Assembly: GCA_922989275.2 (NCBI GenBank)
Contig: OV277862.1
Span: 50,307,786 to 50,371,785 of the forward strand
Direction: 5' to 3'
DNA length: 64,000 nt
Source of the DNA: Gari tellinella
Lineage: Eukaryota > Mollusca > Bivalvia > Cardiida > Psammobiidae
The notes below the pieces were generated by a model. That model saw only the letters and a program-made list of their open reading frames with translations, had not been told where the DNA came from and made no database searches. How positions within the stretch are numbered: position 1 is the first letter of the stretch; each line of letters opens with the position of its first letter. A program made the translations under genes and the position numbers. Below are positions 4,733 to 64,000 of the stretch, in pieces.

Positions 4733-4920
4733 TTGGTATATACTGTGCTCCCTCTCTACAACAACACCCAATGGAAAACAAAGATTGCGTGTGTTGTTCG
4801 TAGGGAAATGTTATATAGAGAAATTAAGACTTTGTTAACATTTGCAAACAGCTTGAATCCAGATCAGACGTCGCGTCATTCTTCATTACCTTCCTTGAGT
4901 CAAATGTCCATTGATATGTA
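4733..4920 (+). mobile_element. MITE family C, left half only
   Basis: It starts with TA then CTGTGCTCCCTCTCTACAAC and contains the family's inner 'gtgtgttgttcgtaggga' and the start of the core (gcaaacagcttgaatcc). The right half is missing. Confidence 0.6.
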
Positions 4921-5087
4921 ATGTTGAGAAAAAACGGAAGACGACAAAGGTAAATTCCGATAATAAAAGTGCAATGGTCCGCATCGAAACGCCGCCTTGC
5001 CAAGTCAATAAAATCGGTCTATACCAAATATGATGTGACAGCACTTCTCAGAAAAGCGGTGTGACGCAAACATGACATGACTCTAAT

Positions 5088-5215
5088 GTTATTACGCTTT
5101 TGAGTTAAGTCTGAGAGCGTTCTCAAGCAGTTGATTGTTCAGATTTGAGCTTTGGCTTTTTACCAATTAAATGTTTTAGAACGAACTCAGACTCAACTCA
5201 ATCGCTTTATACACT
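5088..5215. repeat. Diverged fold-back repeat
   Basis: The left arm, 'cttttgagttaagtctgaga', is the partner of 'acgaactcagactcaactca' near 5181-5200. It matches the better preserved fold-back at 50842-50988. The rest of 4921-5550 shows nothing recognisable. Confidence 0.5.
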
Positions 5216-5552
5216 GAAGAACCAATAGGATCCATCCCACATAATGTGTAGATATAGTGCCATGGGTGACTTTGATTAAGCTAAACACTACTAGTACGCG
5301 ACCAGATAGCAAGGACGAACATATTTCTATAAAAAAAACAAGTGGTTTCGTAATGTATGACAAAAGTAAATCACTGTTGAGTCCAGCTCTCATTAAATAT
5401 TAATAGTTACCACAACGTGAGCATTGCACAAATATTATACCCGTTTACTCGTTCACCGCTGCACATCAGTATTAACAGACGGTACCAGTCACCAATAATA
5501 TATAGATATAGTCCGTATTTGGCTACTTCGGGTAATGTGTAGCAGAATATTG

Positions 5553-5630
5553 CAAAATGGCAAACAATGTAGACCCTAATCAGAGGGTTCCTTTATGTGT
5601 GCTCTGATCAGGTCTTCACTGTTTGTATAG
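5553..5630 (+). mobile_element. MITE family D, core fragment
   Basis: It has a left arm 'aatgtagaccctaatcagag' and a right arm 'ctctgatcaggtcttcactg' followed by 'tttgtataggacaagt', as in complete family D copies. The ends are not preserved. Confidence 0.6.
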
Positions 5631-5687
5631 GACAAGTTTACACTTCACAGGTACACTATTTGCTCATGACGAGTGTACTCGGTACTA

Positions 5688-5933
5688 CAGTGGAGAATCT
5701 GTTATTCTTTCCCGTTTAAACGCAAACGTACGCAAACGCAAAGCACTAAAACGTAGAAAAGAACAACTTTTAGACAATTCTGATAATTCATGTTTATCTT
5801 GGTGGCAAACAGTTTGGAGCCTGATCAGACGCCGGGTTACCCGGCGTCTGATCTGGCTCCAAACTGTTTGTATTGTAAATAATAGTTTTAGCGTAAACGC
5901 GTTTATTGGGAAAGAATAACAGATTCTCCACTG
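5688..5933 (-). mobile_element. MITE family A, complete
   Basis: Ends are CAGTGGAGAATCTGTTATTC and its inverse, flanked by TA (5686-5687, 5934-5935), as in Tc1/mariner relatives. The centre is a near-perfect hairpin whose arms start GCAAACAGTTTGGAGCC. This copy carries the T/T version of the single arm mismatch, so it is in the reverse of the A/A orientation. Open readings through the hairpin are not genes. Confidence 0.9.
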
Positions 5934-6143
5934 TACGGTTGAAAGTTTTAAAGGTATGAAACCAGATTACAATGACATTTAGACATACGATAGTTTAAGG
6001 TACAGCAAACGTTGTTGAGAGAGCTGCTACATGAATAAGAACGTTCTGCATTACTTTTGGTCTCCATTAAGCGATACCATATCTTCAAAGATAAATAAAC
6101 TTCGATATAATAATGACCACTGAACACAGATAGAATCATTATA

Positions 6144-6337
6144 CAGTCAAAACTCGATACTTCGTACTCGCGTTAATTCGAACATACTCATATATCAAAG
6201 TTAAAACGTGGCTAAGCCACGATTTAAATTGGAAATATAGGTTTATTTGACTTAAACGAGATCGAGTTGTCGACATTAAATTAATAAAATACTAGTATTA
6301 TCGATGTAAGCAAGGTCGAAGTATCGATTTTCGACTG
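6144..6337. mobile_element. Tigger/pogo-like MITE
   Basis: The 194-bp element begins CAGTCAAAACTCGATACTTC and ends with the inverse (gaagtatcgattttcgactg). It is flanked by TA at 6142-6143 and 6338-6339. These ends are typical of the pogo/Tigger branch of Tc1/mariner. There is no coding capacity. Confidence 0.75.
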
Positions 6338-6505
6338 TATATAAAGAGAACTGAGGATGTTATGTTAGCTTAACAACTGAGTGGGCCGCACTGCAACATT
6401 TCCGAGAAAATATGTGTCTGTGAAATATAATTAAAAATGGCATTTATGATATGAACTTGGTTGGAATACGTTTGGGAACCTAAGCTATAAAACTGTTACA
6501 TTGAT

Positions 6506-6735
6506 TTTCCATTAACTATTTCACTGGCAAGGTCACAAAAAGGCGACTTTGCAAACAGTTTGGATCCTGATCAGACGCCGCGTAACGCGGCGTCTATTCA
6601 GGATCCAAACTGTTTGACACTCTTATCGACATTTTCTAAGTCAAAACAGCCCTAAATCTGACTTTAAAGATATTGCAGACGATACTTCCAATGCAGACGA
6701 TATTTTGGCGGTAAAAGGATTAAGGCAGACGATGA
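6506..6735 (+). mobile_element. MITE family F
   Basis: It starts near TTAACTATTTCACTGGCAAG, has a hairpin core (gcaaacagtttggatcctga at 6551-6570, apex ccgcgtaacgcgg), then 'gacactcttatcgacatttt' and 'attgcagacgata'. It ends near 'gtaaaaggattaa'. The second family F copy is at 33000-33232. Confidence 0.65.
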
Positions 6736-6924
6736 GAGTTAAGCACAGTAATGTCGTAATCGACTCAAATATGTTCAAAAGGTTTGGATTCAGATCAGAC
6801 GGTACTGGTTACTGATATATCCCCTGTCGCTGTATAGAGATAACCTCTGCTTGAAAATTGTAGTCTGCTTTTGTATATGTATATTAAATTGGAATTTTAA
6901 AACTTCAAACATAAGAAATGAAGA

Positions 6925-7150
6925 AATGAGTATTGAACAGTTTTGATCTTGTTCAGACGCCGAATAACTCGGCGTCTGATCAAGATCTTAACTGTTTGAT
7001 AAGCGCTTTCAGCTTTATCTTGAAACGAAAACGTACAAACCATCGTTTTTCTATTATCTATCATGATGCCGTTGCCGACAAAACAAGAAGTTACAAACTG
7101 TTTTGATCTTACCGCCGACTTATTAGGACCAGGATCTAACATCAATTAAT
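6925..7150. mobile_element. Diverged F-type element with hairpin core
   Basis: The core arms are 'gaacagttttgatcttgttc' and 'gatcaagatcttaactgttt' around an apex 'gacgccgaataactcggcgt'. The flanks are too diverged to define ends. Confidence 0.5.
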
Positions 7151-7288
7151 TGGCACCTGTCTTATGACTTCTTCGAATAATAACTACACAACATTGCCAT
7201 TTCAAAAACAAAAATGAAGACATTTGCAAAGCAATCGATAATGCGTAAAGCAGCGCATGTATTATGCCCTTCGATACCATACCTTTTA

Positions 7289-7602
7289 CAGTGCTTCCGT
7301 TCTACAACAACACCCATTGGGAAACAAAGAGTGTGTGTATTGTTCGAAGGGAGTTGTTTTAGGGAGGGAAATTGGCTTACATTTGCAAACGTCTGAATTT
7401 GATTCAAGCTGTTTGCCAGTCCTTATTATATTTTGTTCTGTCAAAATGTCCAATGTGACTGAGAAAAAACAGCAAAACTAAAATATCAAGCAGACGAGAA
7501 AAGTTTGGACATAATTGTCTTGTTTGTGGAACATCGGCAAACGTCGTTCTGTGGAGGGAATCGTTGATCAGAGGGCCATTGTTAAGAGGGAGAACTACAA
7601 TG
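7289..7602 (+). mobile_element. MITE family C
   Basis: The left end is CAGTGCTTCCGTTCTACAAC after TA 7287-7288. The right end is diverged (aagagggagaactacaatg). Inner landmarks 'gtgtattgttcgaagggagt' and 'ctgtcaaaatgtccaatgtg' are shared with 27306-27633 and 51944-52297. The core is partly eroded here. Confidence 0.7.
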
Positions 7603-7858: not shown

Positions 7859-8066
7859 CAGTTTTTCTTTCCCATTAGACGCGCGTATGCAAACATAATT
7901 ATTGCAACTGCAAACAGTTTGGAGCCAGATCAGACGCCGGGTAACCCGGCGTCTGATCAGGCTCCAAACTGTTTGCCACTCAAATTGAATAGAATCGTTT
8001 GATAACACTGCGTTTGCGTTTAGTTTTGTTTCGTTTAAACGGGACGTAATAACGTCTTCTCCTCTG
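7859..8066 (+). mobile_element. MITE family A, shortened left end
   Basis: The left end is reduced to CAGTTTTTCTTTCCC after TA. The hairpin core at 7912-7975 is intact with A/T arm difference as in other copies, and the right end is taacgtcttctcctctg before TA. Confidence 0.75.
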
Positions 8067-8119: not shown

Positions 8120-8366
8120 CAGTGGAGAAAACGTTATTCTTTCCCGTTGAAACGCAATCGAAACGCAAACGCATAGCACTAAAACGTAGAAAATGTCAGA
8201 TTTTAAATATTTCTTACAATTCATTTTTATCTGAGTGGCAAACAGTTTGGAGCCTGATCAGACGCCGGGTAACCCGGCGTCTGATCTGGCTCCAAACTGT
8301 TTGCAGTGGAAATTAACGTTTTAGCGTTAACGCGTATATTGGGAAAGAATAACACATTCTCCACTG
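8120..8366 (-). mobile_element. MITE family A, complete
   Basis: CAGTGGAGAAAACGTTATTC at the left and cacattctccactg at the right, with TA at 8118-8119 and 8367-8368. The hairpin core lies at 8237-8304 with the T/T mismatch orientation. Confidence 0.9.
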
Positions 8367-12691: not shown

Positions 12692-12937
12692 CAGTGGAGA
12701 ATCTGTTATTCTTTCCCGTTTAAACGCAAACGTACGCAAACGCAAAGCACTAAAACGTAGAAAAGAACAATTTTTGGACAATTCTGATATTTCATGTTTA
12801 TCTTGGTGGCAAACAGTTTGGAGCCTGATCAGACGCCGGGTTACCCGGCGTCTGATCTGGCTCCAAACTGTTTGTATTGTAAATAATAGTTTTAGCGTAA
12901 ACGCGTTTATTGGGAAAGAATAACGTTTTCCCCACTG
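12692..12937 (-). mobile_element. MITE family A, complete
   Basis: CAGTGGAGAATCTGTTATTC at the left and 'cgttttccccactg' at the right, with TA on both sides. It is nearly identical to the copy at 5688-5933, which points to recent amplification. Confidence 0.9.
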
Positions 12938-15433: not shown

Positions 15434-18302
15434 AGGAGATCCACCAACGGATACAGTGTTAGAAAGGTTATACATGTATAGAGGTGGTGATGTATCCGTT
15501 GGTGGACCGCCTTTAGACAACATTTTAGCACTGTATTAGTTGGTGGACGGCCTTTAGATAAATTGTGGCACTACATCAGTTGGGGGACGCTTCTAGATAA
15601 CCTTTCTAGCACTGTATCCGTTGGTGGACAGCCTGTAGATAACATTTTAGCATTGAATCCGTTGATGGACCGCCTTTAAATAAAGTTTTAGCACTGTATC
15701 CGTTGGTGGATGACCTCTAGAAATGGTTTCTAGCACTATATCCATTGGTGGACGTCCTCTAGATAATGTTTCTAGCACTGTATCCGTTAGTGGACCTCCT
15801 ATAGATAACGTTTCTAGCACTATATCTGTTGGTGGGTAACCTCTAGGAAAGGTTTCAAACACTAAATCCATTGGTGGACGTCCTCTAGAGAAGGTTTCTA
15901 GCACTGTATATGTTGGTGATTGGCTGTAGATAACGTTCCTAGCACTGTATCTGTTGGTGTACCGCCAGTATATACCATTTCCAGCACTGTTCCCGTTGGT
16001 GGATCGACTCTAGATAACGTTTAAAAAACTTTATCCGTTGGTGGACCGCCTCTACAAAAGGTTTTTAGCACTATATCCGCTGGTGGACTGCCTTTAGATA
16101 ACGTTGTACATAGCACTGTATCCGTTTATGGACCGCCTGAAAATAACGTTTCTAGCACTGTTTCCGTTAGTTGACCGACTTTAGATACCGTTTAAAGCAC
16201 TGTTTCCGTTGATGAACCGTCTGTAGATAACGTTTTAAGCACTGTATCCGTTGGTGGACCGCCTTTAGATAACTTTGTACATAGCACTGTATCCGTTTAT
16301 GGACCGCCTGAAAATAACGTTTCTAGCACTGTTTCCGTTAGTTGACCGACTTTAGATACCGTTTAAAGCACTGTTTCCGTTGATGAACCGTCTGTAGATA
16401 CCGTTTTAAGCACTGTATCCGTTGGTGGACCGCCTCTAAAAAATATTTCTAGCACTGTTTCCGTTGATGAACGGCCTCTAGAAAAGGTTTCTGACACTGT
16501 ATCCATAAGAAGACGTCCTCTAGAAAACGTTTCTAGCACTGTATTCGTTGGTTGACCTCCGGTAAATAACATTTCTCTGTTGGTGGACCTCCTGTAGATT
16601 ACGTTTTTAGCACTGTATCCGTTGGTGTAATTCCTGTAGATAACGTTTTAGCACTGTATCCGTTGGTGGACCTCCTGTAGATAACATTTCTAGCACTGTA
16701 TCCCTTGGTGGACCCCCTGTCGATAACATTTCTAGCACTGTATCCGCTGGTGGACCGCCTGTAGATAACGTTTCCAGTACTGTATCCGTTGGTAGACTGC
16801 CTTTAGAAAACGTTTAAAGAACTGTATCCGTTGGTGGACCGCCTCTACATTTGGTTTTAGCACTGTATCCGCTGGTAGACCGCCTGTTGATAACGTTTGG
16901 AGCACTGTATCAGTTGGTGGACCTCCTCTTGATAACGTTTCTAGCAATGTATCCGTTGATGGACTGCCTCTAGAAAACGTTTCTAGCACTGTATCCGTTG
17001 GTGGACTATCTCTAGATAACCTTTTTAGCACTGTACCCGTTGGTGAACCACCTAGATAACTTTAGTAGCACTGTATCCGTTGGTTGAATGCCTCTACATA
17101 ACGTTTAAAGCACTGTATCCGCTGGTGGACCTCCTCTTGATAATGTTTCTAGAAATGTATCTGTTGGGGGACCGCCTATATGTAACGTTTCTAGCACTGT
17201 ATCCGTTAGTGAACTGCCTCTAGATAACTTTTTAGCACTGTATCCGTTTGTGGACCGCCTCTACAAAAGGTTTCAAGCACTGTGTCGGTTTATGAACCGT
17301 CTCTTGTAAAGGTTCTAGCACTGAATCCGTTGGTGGAACGCCTCTTTGTTGCTTTTTAGCACTGTATCGGTTGGTGGACCGCCTCTAGATAACGTTTAAA
17401 GCACTGTATCTGTTGGTGGATTGCTTCTATATAACTTTTTAGCGCTGTATCTATTGGTGGACAGCTGTATCTGTTGGTGGATCGCTTCTAGCTAACATTT
17501 TAGCGCCGTATCTGTTGGTGGACCGCCTGTATATAACATTTAAAGCACTGTATATGATGGTTGACCGCCACTAGATAACCTTTTAGCACTGTACTTGTTG
17601 GTGGACCGCCTCTAGATAACGTTTAAAGCACTGTATATATTGGTGGACCACCTCTGGATAACTTTTTAGCACTATATCCGTTGATGAACCGCCTCTAGAT
17701 AAGTTTTTTAGACATGTATCCATAGGTGGACCGCCTTTAGATAACGTTTTAGCCCTGTATAATTATGTTAGTGGAACGCCTCTAGAAAGGGTTTCTAGCA
17801 TTGTATCCGTTGATGGACCACCTCAATATACTGTTTATAGCAGTGTATCCGTTGGTGAACAGTGTGTTGATAACTTCCATTAATGGACCGCATCTATATA
17901 ATGTTTCTAGTACTGTATTTGTTGTTGGACCGCCTCTATATAACCTATATAGCACTATCTGTTTGTGGACCGCCTCTACAAAAGGTTTGTAGCACTGTTC
18001 CCGTTGGTGGCCCGAATCTAGATAAGGGAATTAGCACTGTATCCGTGGGTTTCCCTCCTCTAGATAACGTTTGTCGTACTGTATCCGTTGGTGTACCGCC
18101 AGTATATGCCGTTTTCAGCACTGTATCCGTTGGTGGACTGCCTCTAGATAACTATTATAGCACTGTATCCGTTGGTGGACTGCCTCTAGATAACTATTAT
18201 AGCACTGTATCCGTTGATGGACCGCCTCTACAAAAGGGTTGTAGCACTGTATCGGTCGGTGGGCCGCCTCTAGAAAAGGTGTTTAGCACTGTATCCGTGT
18301 AC
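15434..18302 (+). repeat. Minisatellite array of a 42-bp unit, about 65-70 copies
   Basis: Each unit contains GCACTGTATCCGTTGGTGGA followed by a variant of CCGCCTCTAGATAACGTTTC. The first unit (about 15436-15470) is inverted relative to the rest. A block of about 171 bp with 'tgtacatagcactg' is repeated at about 16105 and 16276, and one unit is duplicated exactly at about 18130 and 18172. Because 42 is a multiple of three, open frames with a 14-residue period appear on both strands (for example 16732-17031 minus and 17883-18317 plus). They are not taken as genes because frames break often and no start or splice context exists. Confidence 0.9.
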
Positions 18303-19054
18303 TATCCATTTCCATGATCCATGATTTCTACGTAATTCTCCGAATCTTATTTCTTACAGTTATTAACTGTATTCAAGTCTTTGTCGGTAGTTTTGTTATT
18401 TCATAATTTAAGACAATATTTTCCACGAAAATAAAATAAATGTATGCTAGAAAACATCCTCACTATACCCAGTTGAATATTTTATCATCATTTAAAGAAA
18501 AATTAGGTTTTCAAGTAGCTTTAAATGTAATAAAACTATGAATTAACTAGTTTTTATTGTATTTGATATATTCAAGGGGAGATAATTCAGTAAAAAGTAA
18601 GAAAACACTCGTTTCTATCGATTGTTTGGATAGATATTATGTCTCCATAAAAACAATGGTGATATCAGTGAAGAACAGCTATTTTGCGACTAAAACAAGT
18701 CATCATTACATTATCTATCAGAATTTAATTTTCACAAAGGGGAGGTAATTTCAATTTGCTCTGACAAGGTAAAGCCCCAACGTACAAAGTGCAGAAAAAC
18801 AGAATGTACTCGGAAGACCATGAGGTTTCAGAAAAGTATGGTGTTCAAAAGTCCCCACATGGGTGGAGGGGGGTGTTCAGTAGCTCGAAGTCTAACTTAG
18901 ACGCTTTCACTTAAGGACTTTGCAACCAATTGTGTTACAATAGTTCTACCTTCCACAGTTCCCAAAGTAAAATGCGTCTCTCACTTAAAACATTATCAGA
19001 TTTTAAACGGCATCACATACCAATTAACATCTTTCGAGTAATAGGTAAGTTACA

Positions 19055-20330
19055 TTTATTAATCATGTTTGATATACAAGGAACAACATATGGGAATAAC
19101 CCACAGTACTCTGAGCCTAGATATTGGGCACGAAGCATCATCTACATGTCCTCTATTTTATATCCCTGGGGTAAAAAAGCCCCCTCCCTGTGTCACAGTT
19201 TTACATAGAGTTACAGTGGAGAAAACGTTATTCTCTCCCAAAAAACGCGTTTACGCTAATACTATTATTTCCACTGCAAACAGTTTGGAGCCAGATCAGA
19301 CGTAGGGTAACCCGGCGTATGATCAGGCTCCAAACTGTTTGTCATTAATGTTAAAATCAACTTTCAGAAGTGTGAAAAAGTTGTTATTTTCTGCATTTTA
19401 GTGGTTTGCGTTTGCGTTTCGTTTGCGTTTAAACGGGAAAGAATAACGTTTTCTCCACTGTATATCGTGAAATTTTCAAACATCTTCTTCTTAAAAACTA
19501 ATCCGACCAGCGCTTTGATATTTGACATGGTGTCACTTATAGAGGTTTTCTACCATTATTGATGAAATGGTGTCGGTCCGTTGCATATCACGGCCACAAT
19601 AGCTAACGATAGATTGTTTCAAAGAAAATTTAAAAAACCTTCTCGTCTAAATCCAAAGTACCCTGAGCTTAGATATTTGGCACAAAGCATCATCTACAGG
19701 TCCTCTGTCAAGAATAATGGAATTATACCCATCAGGTCGAGAAAAAAAAACACGTCCGGTGTCACAGTTTTACATAGAGATATATATTAAAATCTTCAAA
19801 TATCTTCTTCTCTGAAACTAATCAGATCTTTCAAAGAAACCCTAAAAAGTCAGCTGATCTCAAGAAACTAGATGGATTTGAGTATTAACTTACGAAAATG
19901 ATTCAAGGGTAATCATCTACAAATTTTCTTAAAACTTTCTTCCTAACTTAAACAAAACAATATTACTGCCAGTAGGTTTGGAAGGTTTCATATATATTTT
20001 CATTGGACGCTTACATTGAAAGCTGAGATTGTTCAAATTATGTCAAAATTATTCAGCCCGTGGGTCACAAATTTTACATAGGAATATACTAGTAAAAACT
20101 TAAAACATCTTCTTCTCCAAAACCTAAAGGTTTAGAGTTGTGAAGTTTGGTTCGTAGCATACTATGGTGGATCTTCACCAAGGTTGTTCAAATGTTGTCC
20201 CTTGCATCAAAATTAGCCAGCTCCGGGTGCATACATTTAACTAAAACATTTCTGAAATGTTCTCTGGCAAAATTGTTCCAATTATTGCCCATGAGGTTAT
20301 ACTCAGCAATCTATTGACACAATCATATTG
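19055..20330. repeat. Degenerate tandem repeats of a dispersed intergenic type
   Basis: Phrases such as 'gcttagatatttggcacaaa', 'gcatcatctacaggtcctct' and 'gtcacagttttacatagaga' followed by 'catcttcttctc' recur near 19100-19210, 19490-19830 and 20040-20200. A family A MITE (19214-19460) is inserted in it. Confidence 0.6.
19214..19460 (+). mobile_element. MITE family A, complete
   Basis: CAGTGGAGAAAACGTTATTC and its inverse, TA at 19212-19213 and 19461-19462. Core in the A/A orientation, with small changes at the apex (cgtagggtaacccggcg). It is inserted in the degenerate repeat at 19055-20330. Confidence 0.9.
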
Positions 20331-20476: not shown

Positions 20477-20722
20477 CAGTGGAGAATCTGTTATTCTTTC
20501 CCAATAAACGCGTTTACGCTAAAACTATTATTTACAATACAAACAGTTTGGAGCCAGATCAGACGCCGGGTAACCCGGCGTCTGATCAGGCTCCAAACTG
20601 TTTGCCACCAAGATAAACATGAATTATCAGAATTGTCTAAAAGTTGTTCTTTTCTACGTTTTAGTGTTTTGCGTTTGCGTACGTTTGCGTTTAAACGGGA
20701 AAGAATAACAGATTCTCCAATG
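20477..20722 (+). mobile_element. MITE family A, right end mutated
   Basis: CAGTGGAGAATCTGTTATTC after TA at the left. The right end reads cagattctccaatgg instead of ...ctccactg. The core hairpin at 20539-20606 is perfect apart from the family mismatch. Confidence 0.85.
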
Positions 20723-21168: not shown

Positions 21169-21414
21169 CAGTGGAGAATCTGTTATTCTTTCCCGTTTAA
21201 ACGCAAACGTACGCAAACGCAAAACACTAAAACGTAGAAAAGTACAACTTTTTGACAATTCTGATAATTCATGTTTATCTTGGTGGCAAACAGTTTGGAG
21301 CCTGATCAGACGCCGGGTTACCCGGCGTCTGATATGGCTCCAAACTGTTTGCACTGCAAATAATAGTTTTAGCGTAAACGCGTTTATTGGGAAAGAATAA
21401 CGTTTTCTCCACTG
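21169..21414 (-). mobile_element. MITE family A, complete
   Basis: CAGTGGAGAATCTGTTATTC at left, cgttttctccactg at right, with TA duplications. T/T mismatch orientation. Confidence 0.9.
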
Positions 21415-21550: not shown

Positions 21551-21796
21551 CAGTGGAGAAAACGTTATTCTTTCACATTAAACGCGTTTACGCTAAATCT
21601 ATTATTTCCATTGCAAACAGTTTAGAGCCAGATCAGACGCCGGGTAACCCGGCGTCTGATCAAGCTCTAAACTGTATGCCACTCATATTAAAATGAACAG
21701 TCAGACTTATCATATAATTGCCATTTTCTCTATTTTATTGCAATGCGTTTGCGTTTCGTTGCGTTTAAACGGGAAAGAATAACGTTTTCTCCACTG
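21551..21796 (+). mobile_element. MITE family A, complete
   Basis: CAGTGGAGAAAACGTTATTC at left and its inverse at right, TA at 21549-21550 and 21797-21798. The arms read 'tagagcc' and 'gctcta' where other copies read 'ggagcc' and 'gctcc', so matched changes occurred in both arms. Confidence 0.9.
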
Positions 21797-22368: not shown

Positions 22369-22612
22369 CTCTTTGAACCCTATAGTCACGCATATATGCG
22401 TCAATTGCAAAAGTGTACCTGTGGGGTTGTAAACTTGTCATATGCAAACAGTGTAGACCCTGATCAGAGGGCTTCTTAAGAAGCCCTCTGATCAGGGTCT
22501 ACACTGTTTGTCATTTTGACATATATTGTAAAAATCAACCCTTAAAGTAAAAAATGGACTAGACTAAATTGAAAACTAGAATTGTTCATTTGAGGTTTCA
22601 GGGAGGAAAGAG
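22369..22612 (-). mobile_element. MITE family D
   Basis: TTAA at 22365-22368 and 22613-22616. It contains 'tttgaaccctatagtcacgc' at one end and 'aggtttcagggaggaaagag' at the other. The core is a perfect hairpin with arms 'gcaaacagtgtagaccctga' and 'cagggtctacactgtttg'. Confidence 0.85.
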
Positions 22613-24930: not shown

Positions 24931-25031
24931 TGTGCAATAGGAGACATTATAGACCCTTATGAGACGACGCGTTACGCGGCGTCTCATTAGAGTCTACATT
25001 GTTTGCCAATGTCCCCTTTGATAAGACTAGG
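24931..25031 (-). mobile_element. Chimeric TTAA element: D-type arms, F-type apex
   Basis: It follows the TTAA at 24927-24930 and ends near 'gggtttaatgggttaa'. The outer arms read 'tatagacccttatgagac' and 'gtctacattgtttgcc', as in family D, while the apex is 'gacgcgttacgcggcgtc', as in the F core. Confidence 0.55.
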
Positions 25032-25350: not shown

Positions 25351-25959
25351 TTTAAACAATGAGAATTGACAAAATAGAATAAAGTTATAGAATAACCAAT
25401 TCTTGTTATTAATCTACCATCATAATAAACACCGTATAATTATATACTTGAATATTTGTTTTCCGACTCGTGTGATTCTCTTCTTGGGTCTACTATACCT
25501 ATACCACAACCTGTTATTGACTGGACGCAATATGATTGAAATACTGTTAAGATGAGTTGGGTTTTACGGCACTGCAACACAAAATAGGTCATACAGCGTC
25601 GATGAAAGATGAGGGATGATGAAATGAGATGATGATTTCGGGAATATGATTTTGGCTGCAAGGCAGCGCATGGGATCAAACCTACTGGCTTGCATTCCTT
25701 TTATGTTTTTGGCAGAGGGGATAATCTCGGTCTAAGAAACAGACGTTTTCCCCTATGACAATTAGCCCCAGAACCACAAGGCAGGAAGGTCTTTAGGGTG
25801 CAATACTGTTGATTAAAGCATTGTAAAAATCATTATAAATCCAAATCGTGCGATGCATTTGATGTCGTCTTTTATGTCTTTGCAAATTAATGCCAAACCA
25901 ATAAGATAAGACAAGTATTTCACATACCGGTTCTTACTTCTTTAAATCTCCACAAAACC
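25351..25959. other. Intronic DNA, nothing recognised
   Basis: No repeat, exon or domain recognised. Confidence 0.35.
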
Positions 25960-25964
25960 CTACG

Positions 25965-26030
25965 TTGTAACTACTCGTTAGAATCGTCTCAAAGAGACGA
26001 TTCTAACGAGTAGTCACAACATAGGGTTTG
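25965..26030. mobile_element. Family E hairpin without terminal repeats
   Basis: 'tacgttgtaactactcgtta' with 'gaatcgtctc' pairs with 'gagacgattctaacgagtag' at about 25985-26030. The matched changes (tcgtta/taacga instead of tcatta/taatga) occur in both arms. Confidence 0.55.
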
Positions 26031-27305: not shown

Positions 27306-27633
27306 CAGCGTTCCCTCTCTATAACGACATCAATTGGGAGACAATAATTGTGTGTTGTTCGGAGGGAGTCGTTTTAGGGAGGGACATTGGCGTACATTTG
27401 CAAACAGCTTGAATCCAGATCAGACGCCGCGTGACGCGGCGTCTGATCTGGATTCAAAACTGTTTGTCACTCCTCATTAAGTTTTTTCTGTCAAAATGTC
27501 CATTATGTAAAACAGCAGACGACATTGCAGCAGTAAAGGCGTTAGACATAAAGTCATATTTAGGAAACTGTGGCAAATGTCGTTGTAATGAGGGAGTCGT
27601 TGTTTGGAGGGCCGATGTAGAGAGGGAGCAATG
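27306..27633 (+). mobile_element. MITE family C, complete
   Basis: Left end CAGCGTTCCCTCTCTATAAC, right end gtagagagggagcaatg, TA at 27304-27305 and 27634-27635. Core at 27397-27472: arms 'gcaaacagcttgaatccaga' and 'tctggattcaaaactgtttg', apex 'acgccgcgtgacgcggcgt'. Confidence 0.8.
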
Positions 27634-30999: not shown

Positions 31000-31239
31000 C
31001 AGTGGAGAATACGTTATTCTTTCCCGTTTAAATGCAAACGAAACGCAAAAACTAAAACGTAGAAAAGTGTTACTTTTGGACAATTCTGATAATGCATGTT
31101 GATCTGAGTGGCAAACAGTTTGGAGCCTGATCAGACGCCGGGTTTATCGGCGTCTGATCTGGCTCCAAACTGTTTGCAATTGAAATAATAGTTTTAGCGT
31201 AAACGCGTTTATTGTGAAATAATAACGTTTTCTCCACTG
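31000..31239 (-). mobile_element. MITE family A, complete
   Basis: CAGTGGAGAATACGTTATTC at left and cgttttctccactg at right, TA at both sides. Apex changed to 'ccgggtttatcgg'. T/T mismatch orientation. Confidence 0.9.
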
Positions 31240-31394: not shown

Positions 31395-31632
31395 CGCATT
31401 TAACCCTAGCGACGAGTATATTCGTCATTAACAAAGAGTGAACCCGGGAAGGGTACACATGACCGATGCCAACAATGCAAATCCTGATCAGAGGGCTTCT
31501 TTATCAGGGTCTGCACTGTTTTTCATTTTGCACAATAAAGTTCAACCCTGAATAGTCAATGATGAACTTGACATAAACGAATAATAGAATATTGGAATTG
31601 TTTATTAATAGTTTCAGGGTTGAATACGGTTG
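31395..31632 (-). mobile_element. MITE family D
   Basis: TTAA at 31391-31394 and 31633-31636. 'aaccctagcgacgagtatat' at one end, 'gtttcagggttgaatacg' at the other. One arm of the core is shortened (gatcagagggcttctttatc). Confidence 0.75.
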
Positions 31633-31677: not shown

Positions 31678-31927
31678 TCCATTACATGCACCACATAAAT
31701 ATACCTTTTTACGCCTTTATGTTATTCCTCTACTAAAGAAAACAGTTCTACTTTATACAGTTAGGAATATGTTCTAAGATAAATATTTTCTGTAGTCTAG
31801 CAGATGGTAACTTAAAGCAAGTTGAAAGTAAAGCAGAATGCGCCTTAAGGCGCATTCTGCTTTACTTTCAACCTGCTTTAAGTGGTCACATGTCTTCAAA
31901 ACTAGAAACAGGCTATGGGGTAATGGG
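31678..31927 (+). mobile_element. MITE family B
   Basis: TTAA at 31674-31677 and 31928-31931. Perfect hairpin with apex 'gcgccttaaggcgc'; here both arms read 'ggttgaaag' or its complement, so the usual mismatch is absent. Confidence 0.9.
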
Positions 31928-32788: not shown

Positions 32789-32999
32789 AGTCTTCATCCT
32801 TTTCACATTTTACGAGTTATAGTGATAGAATTTCTATTTATTGGATATCACAATGATGAGTTGATTCTGAGAAACTTATCGGAAATTTCCTGTCCCCAAA
32901 GACAGGTTACCTTCATTAGCGCAGTGTTTCATTTTATCAGTACAGTACTATTTCTCTGGATCGTCACTGTAATCATTTGTCGGTCTCTAACGCTTTCAC

Positions 33000-33232
33000 T
33001 CTTAGTGACGCCTTAAAGCGCGTTTGCAAACAGTTTGGGTCCTGATCAGACGCCGCGTTACGCGGCGTCTGATCAGGACCCAAACTGTTTGACACTCTTG
33101 TCGATATTTATTAAGTAATACAACCTTAAATCTATCTTTGAAACGTGTCTTGCAGACAACAATACTGAAGCAGACGACAATAAAGCGGTGAAGGGGTAAA
33201 AATCTCAAGAAAAGTTTGATCATGAAAGGGTT
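33000..33232 (+). mobile_element. MITE family F
   Basis: Left block 'tcactcttagtgacgcctta', then a perfect hairpin with arms 'gcaaacagtttgggtcctga' and its complement and apex 'gacgccgcgttacgcggcgt'. The tail contains 'attaagtaatacaaccttaa' and 'cttgcagacaacaatactga', and it ends 'atgaaagggttaa'. The left TTAA is not preserved. Confidence 0.75.
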
Positions 33233-33257: not shown

Positions 33258-33453
33258 CAGAGCACCAGATAAGGGTAGTTTTTCAAAAACTAAAATCTTT
33301 ATTTCTGAATTAAACCCTATGGTGTCACTACTCATTAGAATCGTCTCTTCGAGACGATTCTAATGAGTAGTAACACCATAGGATTTGGTGTTAAAAAAGT
33401 GAGAAAATCTGGGATTTTTAAAAAAAAAAAACTACCTCTTATCTGGAGCCCTG
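33258..33453 (-). mobile_element. MITE family E
   Basis: Ends CAGAGCACCAGATAAG and cttatctggagccctg, 6-bp duplication TGCATG. The central hairpin pairs 'tatggtgtcactactcatta' with 'taatgagtagtaacaccata'. Confidence 0.85.
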
Positions 33454-34659: not shown

Positions 34660-34850
34660 CAGGGCTCCAGATAAGAGGGAGTAAACTAAACAAATCACAT
34701 TTATTCACTCATTTCAGCACCAAACCCTATGGTGTTACCACTCATTTTGATTGTCTCGAAGAGACAATTCAAATTTTTAGTGACACCACAGGGTTTAATG
34801 CACAAATAAAGATTTTAAGTTTTGAAATAATTCCCTTATCTGGAGCCCTG
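34660..34850 (+). mobile_element. MITE family E
   Basis: Ends CAGGGCTCCAGATAAGAGG and ccttatctggagccctg. The hairpin is partly diverged (ctcattttgattgtctcgaa / gacaattcaaatttttagtg). No clear target duplication. Confidence 0.8.
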
Positions 34851-35062: not shown

Positions 35063-35526
35063 CATATCTGCCATTTCTCCGGATTTTCCGAAATCTTCAG
35101 ATTTTTCTTAATTTGTCCTGATCTAGACTGATTTTTACTGAAATCTTCGGATTTCTGCCCTTTTAAAATTTGGAATTTTATATGCGTCTTTTACTTTTTT
35201 TAAACGTTGAGATGAGTGTCAAACAGTTAACCCTTTGCCTGCTGGTCGCGACTTTATTGATTTTTTGCAAACAGTTTAGATCCAGATCAGACGCCGCGTT
35301 ATGCGGCGTCTGATCTGGATCCATACTGTTTGACACTCGTCTTTTGGTTTATTTACTTTGAAAAGGGTTAAGATCCACGCGGCGTCTGACGCGGATCTAA
35401 ATTGTTTGCATAATTATGTTAGTGTAATGGAAACTGTCAGCGAAAGGGTTAAAGGTACGATTTCTAAAATCGCACTTGAATATTAGGAAATCTTAGGATT
35501 TTTATAAGCAACTTATGGTAGCCCTG
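35063..35526 (+). mobile_element. MITE family G with a nested TTAA element
   Basis: Left end 'catatctgccatttctcc' (mutated CAGGGCTGCC), right end 'aacttatggtagccctg', perfect 6-bp duplication CCACAA. A complete TTAA-flanked element (35231-35448) is nested within. Confidence 0.8.
35231..35448 (+). mobile_element. TTAA element nested in family G
   Basis: TTAA at 35227-35230 and 35449-35452, ends CCCTTTGCCTGC and cgaaaggg. It has a main core hairpin (gcaaacagtttagatccaga, apex gacgccgcgttatgcggcgt) and a second small hairpin 'gatccacgcggcgtctgacg' at about 35372. Confidence 0.7.
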
Positions 35527-36790: not shown

Positions 36791-36960
36791 CCCTTTCCAC
36801 CATATATGTATGTCCAAATCAACTACACCCAAATCTGTTTAAGACAAGTTGCTGCATAAAGCAAGATGAAAGTAAAGCAGAAAGCTCCTATAGGAACATT
36901 CTGTTTTACTTTCATTATGTTTTAAGCTGCCAGCCGTATTCAACACTATCAAAGAATATC
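36791..36960 (+). mobile_element. TTAA-start element with family H-like hairpin
   Basis: Begins CCCTTTCCACCATATATG after the shared TTAA. The hairpin 'gcaagatgaaagtaaagcag' / 'tgttttactttcattatgtt' mixes the B arm sequence with an H apex (aaagctcctataggaac). Right end not found. Confidence 0.55.
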
Positions 36961-39170: not shown

Positions 39171-40224
39171 CGAGGTGTGTCCGTAAAGTTTGTAGACAAT
39201 GTCTATATTTATTAAAGTAACGCACGGTTGAAAGTTTTGTTATGTCTATTATTGAAGTTATGTTTTAGGCATTATTTGTAGAAAATACGACGGTTTTGCG
39301 TAAAAAATAAGAAAAGTATGAATTATTCTTCTAACAAGGAAAGAGGGACCAGGGGCACGCCAAAATACCCAATTTATTTGATTTTCAAAGTGCCGTCTGT
39401 AGTTTATAACTAGATGCAAACCAAACCGATTCTATCCAAAACACATTCCGCAAATAAGGATAACGTCGACGTCATTTCCAGAAAGTTTGGACGTTAACGT
39501 CAAAACCGTTCAAATTTTATGCACATCAATAATTCTGAAGCATTCCGAAATTGTCTCTGGCGAAAATGACTGAATTTGACGTCGCTGAACAGCAGACAAT
39601 TATAAAGTTATGAGCTTCCCTTGGAAAATCGCCAGTGGATACGATGAAAATGTTGTCGGAAACAAGAGGGAAGCCATCCATGTGCCGTTCTTTAGTTTAT
39701 AAGTGGCATAAAAGGTTTAGCGACGGGCGGAGTTCAACGAAGGATGATGAGAGATGTGTGCGCCCGGGTGTCATCAACGAAGGATTTGTCGATTCGGTGC
39801 ATACGATAATCGACGAGTATCGCAGAGTAAGCGTGAGAGACTTATCTGAACGGATTGGTGTTGGTACAACTACTGTGGATTTGATTTTGAAAGATAGATT
39901 GAAAATGAACAAAGTGTGCGCAAGATGGATTCCACGAATATTGACAGAAATTTGATAATTTAAATCAAATTCTATGGTGAGCACTTGAAGCATTCTCTGT
40001 CTAACGTCTGACTCTGTAACGACGTTGCGACATCATAACGACGTCTGCACCTGCCCCGGGTATCTATAAGTGTATGTGGAAAAAGACAGAGAAATAAAAG
40101 ACTACTATTTTTCACATGACAAATGAAAAACGTCCCCTCTTTAGAGTAGTGTAAGTTTTGTATGGCTATTGTTTAAGCTTTGTGACTTTCAAGCACTGTC
40201 CACAAACTTTATGGACACACCTCG
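39171..40224 (+). mobile_element. Mariner element, internally deleted
   Basis: Terminal repeats CGAGGTGTGTCCGTAAAG and (inverse) CGAGGTGTGTCCATAAAG, flanked by TA at 39169-39170 and 40225-40226. At 1,054 bp it is shorter than typical autonomous mariners of about 1.3 kb. It encodes only the DNA-binding N terminus of a transposase. It inserted just to the right of a family B copy. It could have been mobilised in trans. Confidence 0.9.
39566..39955 (+). pseudogene. Mariner transposase N-terminal fragment
   Basis: A frame from ATG 39566 (MTEFDVAEQQTIIKL) is broken by TGA at 39611-39613 and then continues as ASLGKSPVDTMKMLSETRGK through SLVYKWHKRFSDGRSSTKDD to RIGVGTTTVDLILKDRLKMN and KVCARWIPRILTEI, then stops. 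The helix-turn-helix pair and the VCARWIPRILT segment are typical of mariner transposases. The catalytic D,D34D domain is absent. Two lesions (the early stop and loss of the catalytic domain) make it non-functional. Confidence 0.85.
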
Positions 40225-51090: not shown

Positions 51091-51279
51091 CAGGGCTCCA
51101 GATAATGAGTAAGCTAAACAAATCCAACATTTTCTCACTCATACAGTGCCAAATCCTATAGTGTTACTACTCATTAGAATCGTCTCTTTGAGGCGATTTT
51201 AATGAGTAGTGACACCATAAGGTTTAAAGCAAAAATAAAGGTTTTAGTTTTTGAAATATGCCCCTTATCTGGAGCCCTG
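51091..51279 (+). mobile_element. MITE family E
   Basis: Ends CAGGGCTCCAGATAATGAG and cttatctggagccctg, perfect 6-bp duplication TTTAGG. Hairpin 'tgttactactcattagaatc' / 'ttttaatgagtagtgacacc'. Confidence 0.9.
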
Positions 51280-51943: not shown

Positions 51944-52297
51944 CAGCGCTCCCTCTCTACAACAACACTCATTGGGAGACCAACAATATGTGCGTTGTTC
52001 AGAGGGAGTCGTTGTATGGAGGGAATTGGCTTACATTTGCAAACAGCTTAAATCCAGATCAGACGCCGCATAATGCGGCGTCTAATCTGGATTCAAGCTG
52101 TTTGCCACTCGTCAGTATTTTTCCCTCTGTCAAAATGTCAAATGTGTGACCTTGAGAAAAACAATTTTAAGCAGATGATATTGCAGCCGTGAATAGGTAG
52201 GACATAATGGTCGTGTTTAGGGAACTGCGACAAGGGTGGTTGTAAGGAGGGAGTTGTTGTTGGGAGGGTCGTTGTAGAATTACTAGAGGGAGCAATG
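51944..52297 (+). mobile_element. MITE family C, complete, about 15 bp from a splice donor
   Basis: Left end CAGCGCTCCCTCTCTACAAC; right end gttgtagaattactagaggg then agcaatg, carrying a small insertion; TA at 51942-51943 and 52298-52299. Core with apex 'acgccgcataatgcggcgt'. It ends about 15 bp into the intron after the donor of exon 3. Confidence 0.85.
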
Positions 52298-55738: not shown

Positions 55739-55942
55739 CCCATTGTATGCTGGGTAATATTTGGCGGCCATTTTAAAATGTCTTCTGCAGTGGGTATAAT
55801 TCAAATATTTGCCAAATATTATAGCAGTTTCTGATAGATTATGGACTTTTCTGCAAACAGTTTTGATCTCAAATCAGGCCCCATGGAGATCAAAACTTTT
55901 TGACTAGAGGTACACCTAAAAGTGTATCCCAAATAAAATGGG
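55739..55942 (+). mobile_element. MITE family I
   Basis: CCCATTGTATGCTGGGTAAT at left and 'aaataaaatggg' at right, TTAA at 55735-55738 and 55943-55946. The core is 'gcaaacagttttgatctcaa' / 'ggagatcaaaactttttgac'. The right TTAA is shared with a family B copy. Confidence 0.8.
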
Positions 55943-56804: not shown

Positions 56805-57050
56805 ACTCTTACAATACCATGGACCTGTTTAAAATATACTTTTTACATTTGCAAACAGTGTAGACCCAGATCACAGGGCTCCTATAGGAAACCTCTGATC
56901 AGGGTCTACACTGTTTGCTTATTTAAACCAGTATTTATTAAACTACCCAGAATTTCAAAAAAGACTGGTTTCAAGTTTTGGTAACTAAAAATGATCCAGA
57001 AGGGAACCTATTAACCCACAAGAGTTAATTACTTAGTGTTGAAAGAGTCA
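56805..57050 (+). mobile_element. MITE family J, uninterrupted copy
   Basis: 'cttacaataccatggacctg' at left, core 'gcaaacagtgtagacccaga' / 'gatcagggtctacactgttt', right side 'agaagggaacctattaaccc' and 'agtgttgaaagag'. It preserves the empty site 'gacctgtttaaaata' for the insertion in the copy at 57570-58051. Confidence 0.7.
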
Positions 57051-57569: not shown

Positions 57570-58051
57570 CCCTTTCAACACCATAGACCTGTTTAACCGA
57601 TTACCCCATAGCCTGTTGCAAGTATTAAATATAGGTTACCACTTAAAGCAGGTTGAAAGTAAAGCAGAATGTGCCTTAAGGCACATTCTGCTCTACTTTC
57701 ATCCTGCTTTAAGCTACCACCTGCTAGAATATAGAAAATATTTCTGATTATACATATTTATAATTGTATAAATTGGAACTATTTTCTTCAGCGGGGGAAT
57801 AAACGAAAAAGTAAAAAGTCGTATTTATGGGGTAATGGGTTAAAAGATACTTCTTACAATTGAAAACAGTGTAGACCCTGATCAGAGGACTCATATAGGA
57901 GCCCTCTGATAGAGTATGCACTGTTTTCTAATTTAGACCAGTATTCATTAAACTATCAAGAATTATAAGAACACTGGTTCATGTGTTGGCAATTAAAAAG
58001 ATCAAGAAGGGAACCTTATAACCCACAAGAGTAAGTTGGTGTTCAAAAGAG
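57570..58051 (+). mobile_element. MITE family J interrupted by a family B
   Basis: TTAA 57566-57569 then CCCTTTCAACACCATAGACC; continues after the insertion with 'aagatacttcttacaattga', core 'gaaaacagtgtagaccctga' and right side ending 'gttcaaaagagttaa'. The family B copy sits at the TTAA within 'gacctgtttaa'. Confidence 0.75.
57597..57839 (-). mobile_element. Family B nested in family J, empty site known
   Basis: TTAA at 57593-57596 and 57840-57843. 'cgattaccccatagcctgtt' at left, 'tatggggtaatggg' at right. The second family J copy shows the site with a single TTAA. Confidence 0.9.
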
Positions 58052-58639: not shown

Positions 58640-59480
58640 GTAATGGAAAAGTAGGTCAACCTCAAGGTCAAGGTCACAGCTAGGGTAAACAAATGGTATA
58701 GTTGGAGAGATGTTGACACAATGAAATACATGTCAAACTTTTATGACAGCTCTACCAGACTACCATCTATGCCAATTATTTCAAATGTTATCAGCATTCA
58801 ACAATATTTAGAAAAGTAGGTCAAAGTCAAGGTCACAATTAAGGGCAAAAATGTTGACATGGTCGGAAAGGTCTTGACACAATTAAGCAATTCACATGCC
58901 TGAACGTATTTAAAGTTCCATTTGCAATAGTGCAAGGGTTGAAGTCAAGGTTAATTTTTTTTTTTTTGGGTCAAATATCAAGGTCAAGGTCACATGGTAA
59001 AAATAGATAGTATGGCTGGAAATCGAAGTATCAACACAAATAAGGAAAAAAACGTACTAGGTATGATTTTTGAAATTTTGGCAGCCCTATATATGTCTAT
59101 TGGTTATGTGCTTTCAAAGACTATTAACCCTTTCCTCCCTGAAACCTCAAATGGACAATTCTAATGTTCAATTTAGTCTAGTCCATTTTTGACTTTTTAG
59201 GGCTGATTTTTACAATATATGCCAAAATGACAAACAGTGTAGACCCTGATCAGAGGGCCCCTTAAGGAGCCCTCTGATCAGGATCTACACTGTTTGCATA
59301 GGACAAGTGTATACTCCTCACATGTACGCTGTTTGCAAATGACGAATATATGTGTGACTAGGGTTCAAAGAGTTAAGGAAAGTACATGTATGTCAAATGT
59401 CAAGGACAATGTAACAAGGGCAAACATATGTTGGCATTAAGGTCTTGAGGTAAAATAAGATGATACTGTTGAAGACTTGA
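58640..59480. repeat. Degenerate AGGTCAAGGTCA-type tandem repeat, interrupted by family D
   Basis: 'aaaagtaggtcaacctcaag', 'aagtaggtcaaagtcaaggt', 'gtcaaatatcaaggtcaagg' and 'atgtcaaatgtcaaggacaa' mark units of roughly 170 bp, each followed by 'aaaaatgttgacatggtcgg' variants. A T-run lies near 58960. The D copy at 59128-59372 splits the array. Confidence 0.6.
59128..59372 (+). mobile_element. MITE family D, complete
   Basis: CCCTTTCCTCCCTGAAACC at left, 'tagggttcaaagag' at right, TTAA on both sides. Core apex 'gggccccttaaggagccc'. Confidence 0.9.
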
Positions 59481-61670: not shown

Positions 61671-61727
61671 AATATGGGAATCAACGTCTTCCCTATCATA
61701 TAATCAAAACGTATAAAGGAAACTTAA

Positions 61728-61969
61728 CACATTGAACCCTAGCGACGAGTATACTCGTCATGAACAAATTATATCTCTCTCAAAAGTACACTTGTCCTAT
61801 GCAAATAGTGTATATCCTGATCAGAGGGATCCTTAAGGAGCCCTCTGATCAGAATCTACACTGTTTGTATTTTTGTAAATATTGTTAAAAACCACCCTAA
61901 TTATTCAAAAATGGACTAAATTTAATTGTAAATTGGAATTGTCCATTTAAATTTTCAGGGGTGAATGAG
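61728..61969 (-). mobile_element. MITE family D, complete
   Basis: TTAA at 61724-61727; the right flank TTAT is a mutated TTAA. Core apex 'gggatccttaaggagccc'. 'aaccctagcgacgagtatac' at one end. Confidence 0.85.
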
Positions 61970-61983
61970 TTATAGGAGATCTG

Positions 61984-62225
61984 AGACATTCTGTTATTCT
62001 TTCCCGTTTAAACGCAAACGTACGCAAACGCAAAACACTAAAACGTAGAAAAGTACAACTTTTTGAAAATTCTGATAATTCTTGTTTATCTTGGTGGCAA
62101 ACAGTTTGGAGCCTGATCAGACGCCGGGTTACCCGGCGTCTGATCTGGCTCCAAACTGTTTGCACTGCAAATAATAGTTTTAGCGTAAACGCGTTTATTG
62201 GGAAAGAATAACAGATTCTCCACTG
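61984..62225 (-). mobile_element. MITE family A, left end scrambled
   Basis: The left end reads 'agacattctgttattc' instead of CAGTGGAGAATCTG; the right end is 'cagattctccactg' before TA. Core in T/T orientation. Confidence 0.85.
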
Positions 62226-63355
62226 TATTACAGTATATTATTTGATAAAGAAAAACAGTAACACAGAAAGCTCCTATGAACGCTTTCTGGATTGGTATAG
62301 ATGTATCTGGTCACATTTCTGCAAGTCTGAAAAATCTATCTTTTCAGCGACGACTTAACATAAATTTCATCACAAAAGTATGCGGTATTTATCATAATAA
62401 TGATTTAATCTCAGTTTCTCTTTCAAAAATGGCGGTGAAAAGAAAATAGAGAAAAAATATCTCACACATTTTCTTTTATTTCTATATAAAAATACAATTG
62501 TGCAAAACATATCTAAACTATTTACATCGAACAAACGTTGCCAGTGAAAGAATTAATTAAGAAAAGCTCTTGGATAGTCATTAGGGACTCTTTTTAGCAA
62601 AATCACTGGATTGCGTCCCTTAAAGACCTAGTAAAGAAGCCGAAATACGCATTGTGGTTTTCTCCCTTTATTTCAATACATGACAGATTCCCCATGGCAG
62701 TTTTATGATACCGCGCAATTAAACGCGCCAGGGGGTCACCCGATGATAATGCTATGGTCGGTAATTTCCGTAGGATTAACGAGTGTAACAGCTTGAAATC
62801 ATGAAATATAGTGTAATTCAACTTAAAAAATACTGTACAAGACACTAATCTATTTTTCTGAAATTTATATCATTAGAAAGAGCAATGTTTTCTCAATTTA
62901 CCCATAACGGGGCGGATATTTGATTTTGATAAATAAATTGCTTTTAAGATCCAAGAAAGGTACACCACTCCCACGTTTTTGCATATTCGTATAAGAATAT
63001 ATAGGCAGCACTTTACTGTTTAAATAATCAAAAAAATACTGTTGAAGATGAAATATTATCTTAAAACAAAATATACCATCATAAAGTGTAGATTTAGACC
63101 ATTCAACTCATAACGGGGCGGATATTGTGATTTGAACAATAATGGTTTTATTGCAGTTACAAAAAAAATTCGTTATATATTCTATGTAACCTAAATTGAT
63201 GGCTTCTTGCTGGAAAGTCGCTATCGGCTTATTTTTCAAGGGGAGTAACTCCCTCGATTAAGCCAGGCATTTCACTAAAATAGTCCCTATTGTAATAAGG
63301 CATAAGATGTAGTAAAACTTCTCTATTAGGACCTCTATAACGAAGGCTGATTGAT
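62226..63355. other. Intergenic DNA with a paired 'cataacggggcggatat' repeat
   Basis: 'acccataacggggcggatat' occurs at about 62900, and 'actcataacggggcggatat' at about 63106, about 206 bp apart, with diverged surroundings. A decayed family H hairpin (acacagaaagctcctatgaa) is at about 62255. No gene recognised; the 80-codon minus frame at 62603-62845 has no domain. Confidence 0.45.
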
Positions 63356-63369
63356 TGTATAATGGACAG

Positions 63370-63475
63370 CGGAGAGCTTAAATCAAGGTGACAGTAAAAC
63401 AGAAAACTCCTAATGAAGCTTTATGTGTTACGGTCACCTTGCTTTAAGCAGTGACCTAGAGTAAACACATTCTAA
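63370..63475. mobile_element. Family H hairpin
   Basis: 'gcttaaatcaaggtgacagt' / 'tacggtcaccttgctttaag' with apex 'aaaactcctaatgaagcttt'. Confidence 0.55.
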
Positions 63476-63530
63476 TTAAAACAATTCTGTGTTCGTAATA
63501 GAGATTTTACTTTACTGTCAATCTGAAAAC

Positions 63531-63781
63531 GCATTCACCCCTGTAACTTTAAATAGATAATTCCAGTTTCCATTAAAGTCTAGTCTATTTATTGCAATAT
63601 AAGGCTGTTTTCTAGATGTACAGACTATTTCAAAATTATAAAGCAGTGCAGACCCTAATCAGAGGGCTCATTTGAGCCCTCTGATTAGGGTCTTCACTGT
63701 TTGTATAGGCCAACTACTTTTTACATATACATGTACAAAGTTCGTTAATGGGAAGTATACTCGTCGTTAGGGTTGAATGTG
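63531..63781 (+). mobile_element. MITE family D, complete
   Basis: 'cattcacccctgtaacttta' at left (TTAA lost), 'tagggttgaatgtg' before TTAA 63782-63785. Core apex 'gggctcatttgagccc'. Confidence 0.8.
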
Positions 63782-63821
63782 TTAAGAGATAACTCAATAA
63801 TTATGGAAGAATATTGTGATA

Positions 63822-64000
63822 CAGTGGAGAATCTGTTATTCTTTCCCAATAAACGCGTTTACGCTAAAACTATTATTTACAGTGCAAACAGTTTGGAGCC
63901 AGATCAGACGCCGGGTAACCCGGCGTCTGATCAGGCTCCAAACTGTTTGCCACCAAGATAAACAAGAATTATCAGAATTGTCTACGTTTTAGTGCTTTGC
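63822..64000 (+). mobile_element. MITE family A, cut by the window edge
   Basis: CAGTGGAGAATCTGTTATTC after TA 63820-63821, core at 63883-63950 in the A/A orientation; the right end is off the window. Confidence 0.9.

Follow-up and report, generated by a model that had tools for sequence, protein, structure and literature searches.

A hairpin core shared by miniature inverted-repeat elements of two target-site classes in the genome of the bivalve Gari tellinella

Several families of miniature inverted-repeat transposable elements (MITEs) in a 64,000-nucleotide stretch of the genome of Gari tellinella (assembly GCA_922989275.2, contig OV277862.1, positions 50,307,786 to 50,371,785 of the forward strand; hereafter the window, by which all positions are counted) contain a common hairpin, here called H1. 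Our analysis confirms in the main that H1 is one homologous DNA module, present in at least five families with differing flanks (A, C, D, F/J and K). It is found in elements of two target-site classes, TA (A and C) and TTAA (D and F/J), and its pairing has been kept by compensatory changes. The first-pass annotation of the window had described one core with differing ends and the same assignment of TA and TTAA, and this is also what we see.

A hairpin core common to families with different ends

H1 is a near-perfect hairpin of 65–66 bp, in which a CAAACAG segment is followed by a GATCAGA segment and the apex. Representative cores are located at 20540–20604 in family A, 27401–27466 in C, 22445–22510 in D and 33027–33091 in F. 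The apex reads GACGCCGGG in A and GACGCCGCG in C and F, and has the consensus GAGGGCTCC in D, where the example copy has GAGGGCTTC; the positions, both segments and the family-specific apices were located as previously annotated. CAAACAG and its reverse complement each occur 44 times in the window, where base composition alone predicts about four. Ungapped matching gave 38 full-length H1 matches and 16 half matches, two of which are the halves of one hairpin. A palindrome scan of the window revealed 68 hairpins, 26 with the CAAACAG/GATC core and 22 with an unrelated core, H2, as labelled by a simple motif rule that leaves some degenerate H1 hairpins unlabelled.

Compared end to end, the arms of the core are identical at 29/33 positions between A and F, 28/33 between A and C, 29/33 between F and C and 26/33 between F and D. 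The corresponding values are 23/33 for A and D, 22/33 for C and D, and 30/33 for D and K. The maximum among 2000 shuffles per family pair was 19/33, and two control hairpins, H2 and H3, reached at most 12/33 against the arms of A, C, D, F and K. Since both controls are lower, the similarity exceeds that of independent palindromes (the annotation had named similarity no greater than this as speaking against a shared core), and chance palindromes are thereby ruled out. Family I had also been listed as a carrier of the core. Its imperfect hairpin (55853–55908, plus strand), inside a TTAACCCATT... element, is a weak relative, with 15–17 of 28 positions identical to A, C, F or D.

Each core subtype is found in at least two flank families, the GACGCCG type in A, C and F/J, and the GAGGGCTCC type in D and K. 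A hairpin at 24941 combines D-like outer arms with an F-like apex. The A subtype has 32-bp arms with one fixed A.A mismatch. The border TG[core]N-CA recurs in most copies of A, C, D and F, and copies of A, D and F cease to be similar, as judged by eye, at most a few bases away from the foot of the hairpin.

Family A has the properties of a MITE, being short and non-coding with terminal inverted repeats (TIRs) and uniform repeated copies, 12 of which were aligned. Six copies are 240–247 bp and one is 266 bp long, with TIRs starting CAGTGGAGAA..., matching over 24–32 bp and bounded by TA on both sides. The core was said to be central in every family, but in A it lies off-centre, between arms of about 63 and 118 bp. 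TA flanks matching TIRs in the copies at 5688–5933, 8120–8366, 12692–12937, 19214–19460, 21551–21796 and 31000–31239, which were retrieved by a search that required TA or TTAA at the ends. In the example element (20477–20722, plus strand; TIR CAGTGGAGAATCTG...; short arm 20477–20538, long arm 20605–20722) the right terminus is slightly damaged, and its core, on the same strand, is of the A subtype. The copy at 5688–5933 (minus strand, core 5806–5870) has 26-bp TIRs between TA dinucleotides, and a further copy is located at 21169–21414 (minus strand, core 21287–21351, arms matched separately).

Family C starts with CAGCG(T/C)TCCCTCTCTA and finishes with GAGGGAGCAATG. It is flanked by TA in two of the three copies looked at, the right end of the third not being traced. 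These two are the element at 27306–27633 (plus strand, TA-CAGCGTTCCCTCTCTA...GAGGGAGCAATG-TA), with its core at 27401–27466 on the plus strand, and that at 51944–52297 (plus strand, core 52040–52104). In the third copy, at 7289–7592, the core is reduced to about 31 nt by an apparent apex deletion. With CAGTG or CAGCG at the start, TIRs and TA on both sides, A and C resemble Tc1/mariner-type MITEs, to which we take them to belong on the basis of TA and TIR motifs.

Families D and J start with TTAACNCTTTG and are bounded by TTAA, which was seen by eye at both ends in three of six D copies and at one end in the other three. TTAA bounds together with CC[C/T]T-like termini are found in both families and give them a likeness to piggyBac-type MITEs; in F the TTAA-type ends have partly decayed. 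Family D is represented by elements at 22369–22612 (plus strand, core 22445–22510) and approximately 59128–59372 (minus strand, TTAA at both ends, core 59231–59296). The short J element at 35231–35367 (plus strand, core 35268–35332) reads TTAA-CCCTTTGCCTGCTGG...AAAGGG-TTAA. Family F is found at about 32988–33199 (plus strand, limits set by eye, core 33027–33091, ends partly decayed) and, with TTAA at both ends and GCAGACGATA in the right arm, at 6512–6723 (plus strand, limits by eye, core 6552–6616). Family K has the D-subtype core at 56852–56917 (plus strand) and 57863–57927, within flanks of its own and with undefined ends.

The flanks were compared by local alignment of oriented sequences against 60 dinucleotide shuffles, for 15 family pairs per side, over 60 nt to the left and 120 nt to the right of the core, a span that covers the TIRs in part. 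The copies used were five of 13 for A, five of six for D, five for F, two each for C and K and one for J. Simulation indicated that the test is reliable up to about 40% divergence and has little power above. On the right, C-F is the sole clear case (z 6.4); A-D (4.3), C-D (4.1), D-F (3.7) and C-J (2.3) are weak, and A-F (−2.0), A-C (−0.9) and D-K (0.0) show nothing. On the left, C-K gave z 5.1 and F-J 3.4, the remaining pairs lying between −2.0 and 1.3. Similarity of core and flank is thus decoupled: A and F share 29/33 core positions with a left-flank z of 1.2 and the right-flank value above, and D and K share 30/33 with a left-flank z of 1.3. Judging from the weak right-arm similarity of A-D, C-D and D-F, some of the flanks may be distantly related.

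Maintenance of pairing and conservation of the core

Among 38 aligned H1 cores (33 distinct), 88.8% of cells are paired, compared to 25–39% in slid controls. Double changes were found in 18 of 32 pairs against 11.4 in shuffles, and none of 500 shuffles reached the observed number. Compensated pairs within families also exceeded random placement in a test that counts copies and not events, with five in D (null 0.86), eight in F, J and C together (null 0.49) and seven in H2 (null 1.5). This shows that pairing of H1 is kept by compensatory changes. The pattern is expected equally if one arm is corrected by the other at the DNA level and if pairing is under selection.

The core of A has accumulated 2.3% substitutions, as compared with 8.7% and 10.0% in the two arms, and was lower in 12 of 12 copies (p 0.0005), so that it diverges about four times less than its flanks. 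Rates were calculated from 12 of the 14 intact A cores (without that at 7911, which has variant flanks, and that at 63885, at the window end), six of nine D copies and 17 of 27 H2 copies.

H2 is a 72-bp hairpin core with 27 matches in the window (for example 31811–31882, plus strand), many of them in one TTAA family starting TTAACCCATTACCCCATAGCCTG.... Its substitution rate is 5.6% in the core against 23.1% and 15.9% in the arms, the core being lower in 17 of 17 copies. Pairing is 90.4%, with 17 double-change cells against 7.5 in shuffles (0/500 as high) and six double-change pairs against 3.7, a number reached by 50 of 500 shuffles. H2-like hairpins are also located at 36855–36926 (plus strand, arms 30/36 and 28/36), 63377 (27/36 and 25/36) and 26927 (26/36 and 24/36), and the flanks of all three gave no match to H2 family flanks at E 1e-4. 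Because these H2-like cores have other flanks, the sharing of hairpins between elements is probably not confined to H1.

The control hairpin H3 is 75 bp long with AAACCCTATGGTGTTACTACTCATTAGAATCGTCTC arms. It has four matches, at 33312–33386, 25955–26029, 34722–34796 and 51151–51225, three of which have related flanks as judged by eye.

Precedent and origin of the shared core

The annotation knew of no described MITE system with one hairpin core shared across transposase classes; as a statement that nothing of the kind is described, this was too strong. In the corals Acropora millepora and A. palmata, TTAA elements some 100 bp long make up the CMITE families I–VI, which differ in their TIRs and have in common an internal region of 75 bases whose conservation exceeds that of the TIRs (Wang et al. 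2010, PMC2872659). In that report, the origin of the internal region is given as unknown and a role in transposition is suggested; family I seems to be derived from a piggyBac-like transposon, and a new mobile element, CMITE-IN, consists of a CMITE inserted between 23-bp direct repeats and has TTAA ends (PMC2872659). The coral CMITEs are the only precedent for shared-core MITE families that we recognised among the literature matches listed.

As in the H1 families, the CMITEs as described are miniature elements whose ends differ and whose internal region is the better conserved part. A corresponding internal region, more conserved between families than the TIRs, is found for H1, with arms identical at 22–30/33 positions and flanks mostly at shuffle level. 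In contrast, the CMITEs described are all TTAA elements, and H1 is also found in TA elements. The 60-bp CMITE consensus printed in the report gave no match on the H1 core, so the H1 elements are not CMITEs proper. It gave seven weak matches elsewhere in the window (E at least 0.11), of which three fall in palindromes within D-type left arms, and its predicted fold is weak (−11.0 kcal/mol), not a long palindrome as in H1. H1 is thus the same kind of phenomenon as the CMITEs with a core that is unrelated in sequence; new relative to them are the near-perfect palindrome, the occurrence in both TA and TTAA elements, and the similar behaviour of a second hairpin.

The D-type left arms contain a palindrome, GACGAGTATACTCGTC, at 31411, 60984 and 61744 and in degraded form at 5668 and 63750. 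It is faintly like part of the CMITE consensus (E 0.78), perhaps by chance.

Family C gives an indication of how the core may have moved. A right-arm stretch at 27514–27542 (plus strand) aligns with the F-type right end (AGCAGACGACATTGCAGCAGTAAAGGCGT vs AGCAGACGACAATAAAGCGGTGAAGGGGT in F) and is followed by TAG where F has its TTAA-type end. This single alignment scores 34, under the highest shuffle (40), with a family-level z of 6.4 for the C-F right arms. The right arm of the copy at 51944–52297 scores 45 against the F copy at 33027, above all shuffles (highest 40), and 31.5 against the F copy at 6552 when aligned outwards from the hairpin border, which taken alone is not above shuffles. Imperfect direct repeats of about 22 bp (GAGGGAGTCGTT...) flank the F-like stretch in both C copies, at 27362 and 27590 and at 52002 and 52247. 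Between its TA ends C thus very probably contains a TTAA stretch of the F type. The annotation had seen no trace of a nested transposon in C and had concluded that simple insertion cannot explain the core; the match to F-type right arms overturns the former, and the core of C can be accounted for if an F-type element was nested or captured. The broader proposal, that the core passes between element types, is partly supported by the homologous core in two target-site types, with C being explicable by nesting or capture.

The explanation that we favour, and which we consider evenly poised between right and wrong, is that H1 is a hairpin of TTAA elements that entered other elements through nesting or through capture during repair, and that promotes the multiplication of its carriers. 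H1 would probably belong originally to F/J/D-type MITEs of the TTAA (piggyBac-like) class, the TA-type elements having received it secondarily. Since the right arm of C is F-like up to the TTAA end, C would have gained H1 together with an F-type right arm, either by insertion into a TA element or by copying during break repair, and new elements made by nesting have a precedent in CMITE-IN as reported (PMC2872659). In A, where the shared part is limited to the core and possibly a short border, GTG[core]CCAC, capture would have been traceless. The hairpin may be kept by arm-to-arm correction via template switching, by selection for pairing, or by both. As the core diverges more slowly than its own flanks, H1 is suggested to help its carriers multiply, and its structure may act in cis during excision, replication or repair. 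The differing target sites suggest that the carriers use different transposition machineries.

Several observations weigh against this explanation. The direction of transfer, from TTAA to TA elements, is drawn from C only; the explanation does not account for the left-flank similarity of C and K; and when the window was searched by flank, no precursor lacking the core was found for A, C, D or F. Core-less or short-core loci among 25 flank-defined loci appeared by eye to be the result of apex deletions, decay or later insertions. Family A has a single compensated pair, with 158 of 2000 randomisations as high, and all 14 intact A cores keep the A.A mismatch, both of which indicate that correction between the arms is inefficient in A. 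In D the core (7.6%) was lower than the arms (13.2% and 11.4%) in only four of six copies (p 0.16). Conservation along the TIRs of A is uneven, with bins of 1–5% beside others of 8–19%, and the core thus does not just follow the constraint on the TIRs. The copies in the conservation test were collected through the core, which favours intact cores and may overstate the effect, and all evidence comes from one window of one genome.

A wider claim, that H1 is a selfish palindrome module spreading between TTAA and TA superfamilies in many animal genomes and boosting any carrier, with H1 and H2 coexisting, is speculative and we regard it as doubtful on what the sequences suggest.

Common descent of all families, in which the core of one ancestral hairpin element changed more slowly than its arms and ends and the termini were replaced between TA and TTAA, is rather unlikely. 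The weak right-arm similarities of D-F, A-D and C-D are in its favour. Mean flank distance is about 3.5 times that of the core in A and 3.3 times in H2, and a core divergence of 12% could thus pair with about 40% in the flanks, near the limit of the flank test. However, the flanks of A-F and D-K show nothing despite cores that alike, and two target-site types demand at least one change of ends.

Plain nesting, by which TA MITEs received a hairpin MITE of the TTAA type whose inner ends then decayed, the composite multiplying under drift only, is less likely again. It would account for the right arm of C ending F-like at a TTAA-like site, and the direct repeats of C are reminiscent of the 23-bp repeats of CMITE-IN, which as described has TTAA ends and contains a full CMITE (PMC2872659), whereas C has TA ends and no recognisable left end of an inserted element. 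No F-type left end was recognised in C, nor any F-type arm in A, by flank comparison in the window, and plain nesting leaves both the pairing of the core and its conservation above the arms unexplained.

That selection acts on RNA, transcripts folding into hairpins of 65–72 nt that perhaps engage host silencing, appears improbable. The length and near-perfect stem of H1 suit a small-RNA precursor and the double changes preserve pairing, but correction of a DNA palindrome yields the same covariation, and a search of the window against Rfam gave no match at gathering score.

A hairpin that itself inserts into other elements with sharp borders, as the recurring border and the end of similarity near the hairpin base could suggest, is very improbable, since neither empty sites nor duplicated targets nor solo hairpins outside elements emerged, and C and F have arm sequence in common.

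In the usual view, a MITE relies chiefly on its ends and the sequence between them is filler. A hairpin that is better conserved than the arms, and that is housed in both TA and TTAA elements, suggests that amplification involves an internal part acting in cis; H1 offers a concrete 65-bp sequence on which an internal function of MITEs can be tested. It also revives, with an exact structural prediction, the question raised by the CMITEs in 2010 about the source and role of a conserved internal region.

Relatives outside the window and other features

A protein profile of eight translated cores was used, with 988 candidate open reading frame (ORF) products searched, and 683 short ORF products matched it at E up to 10. 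The best 120 of the 683, which are ENA entries, have E values from 3.5e-16 to 1.9e-5, and Gari tellinella itself may be among their sources. Among these 120, 115 could be anchored, and 87 right and 81 left flanks were long enough for comparison. They formed eight right and seven left clusters of at least two, with 26 and 30 singletons, respectively; a right cluster of 10 owes its cohesion partly to additional copies of the core, and an element read in both orientations may be counted twice. Sequences resembling the A arm (KRVYAKTIIYNTNSLEPDQTPG) are present in two of the matches, P0122 and P0126 (KRVYAETIMSDANSLEPDQTPG and KRVYAETIMSYANSLDPDQTPG). A protein search with one single ORF gave no matches.

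A search of prokaryote genomes with one pattern gave three stretches, one of which is real. In viral contigs three patterns gave no stretches and a fourth gave two without hairpins. A terminal stretch of about 130 bases in a contig (L002, 1–130) from a metagenome-assembled genome (MAG) of Spirochaeta contains a TTAA-type element end with an H1-like core. This stretch is probably host DNA of the clam Phacoides pectinatus joined to the bacterial contig. It is attributed to a gill sample of this clam because the record label, LUC14, P3, fits the 2014 MAG P3 in Table 1 of PMC6461927.

Other features of the window include a non-long-terminal-repeat retrotransposon at 3–2528 (minus strand), in which two adjacent open frames contain the reverse transcriptase and the endonuclease domains. 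The named relatives of its reverse transcriptase ORF (3–1391, minus strand) are from amphioxus, crab and oyster, among other matches. An ORF at 39614–39952 had sub-threshold helix-turn-helix matches in Pfam only, and presumably resembles the N-terminus of a mariner-type transposase. Open frames at 15650–16009 (minus strand) and 17874–18314 (plus strand) consist of imperfect repeats of about 15–20 residues in a minisatellite-like tract.

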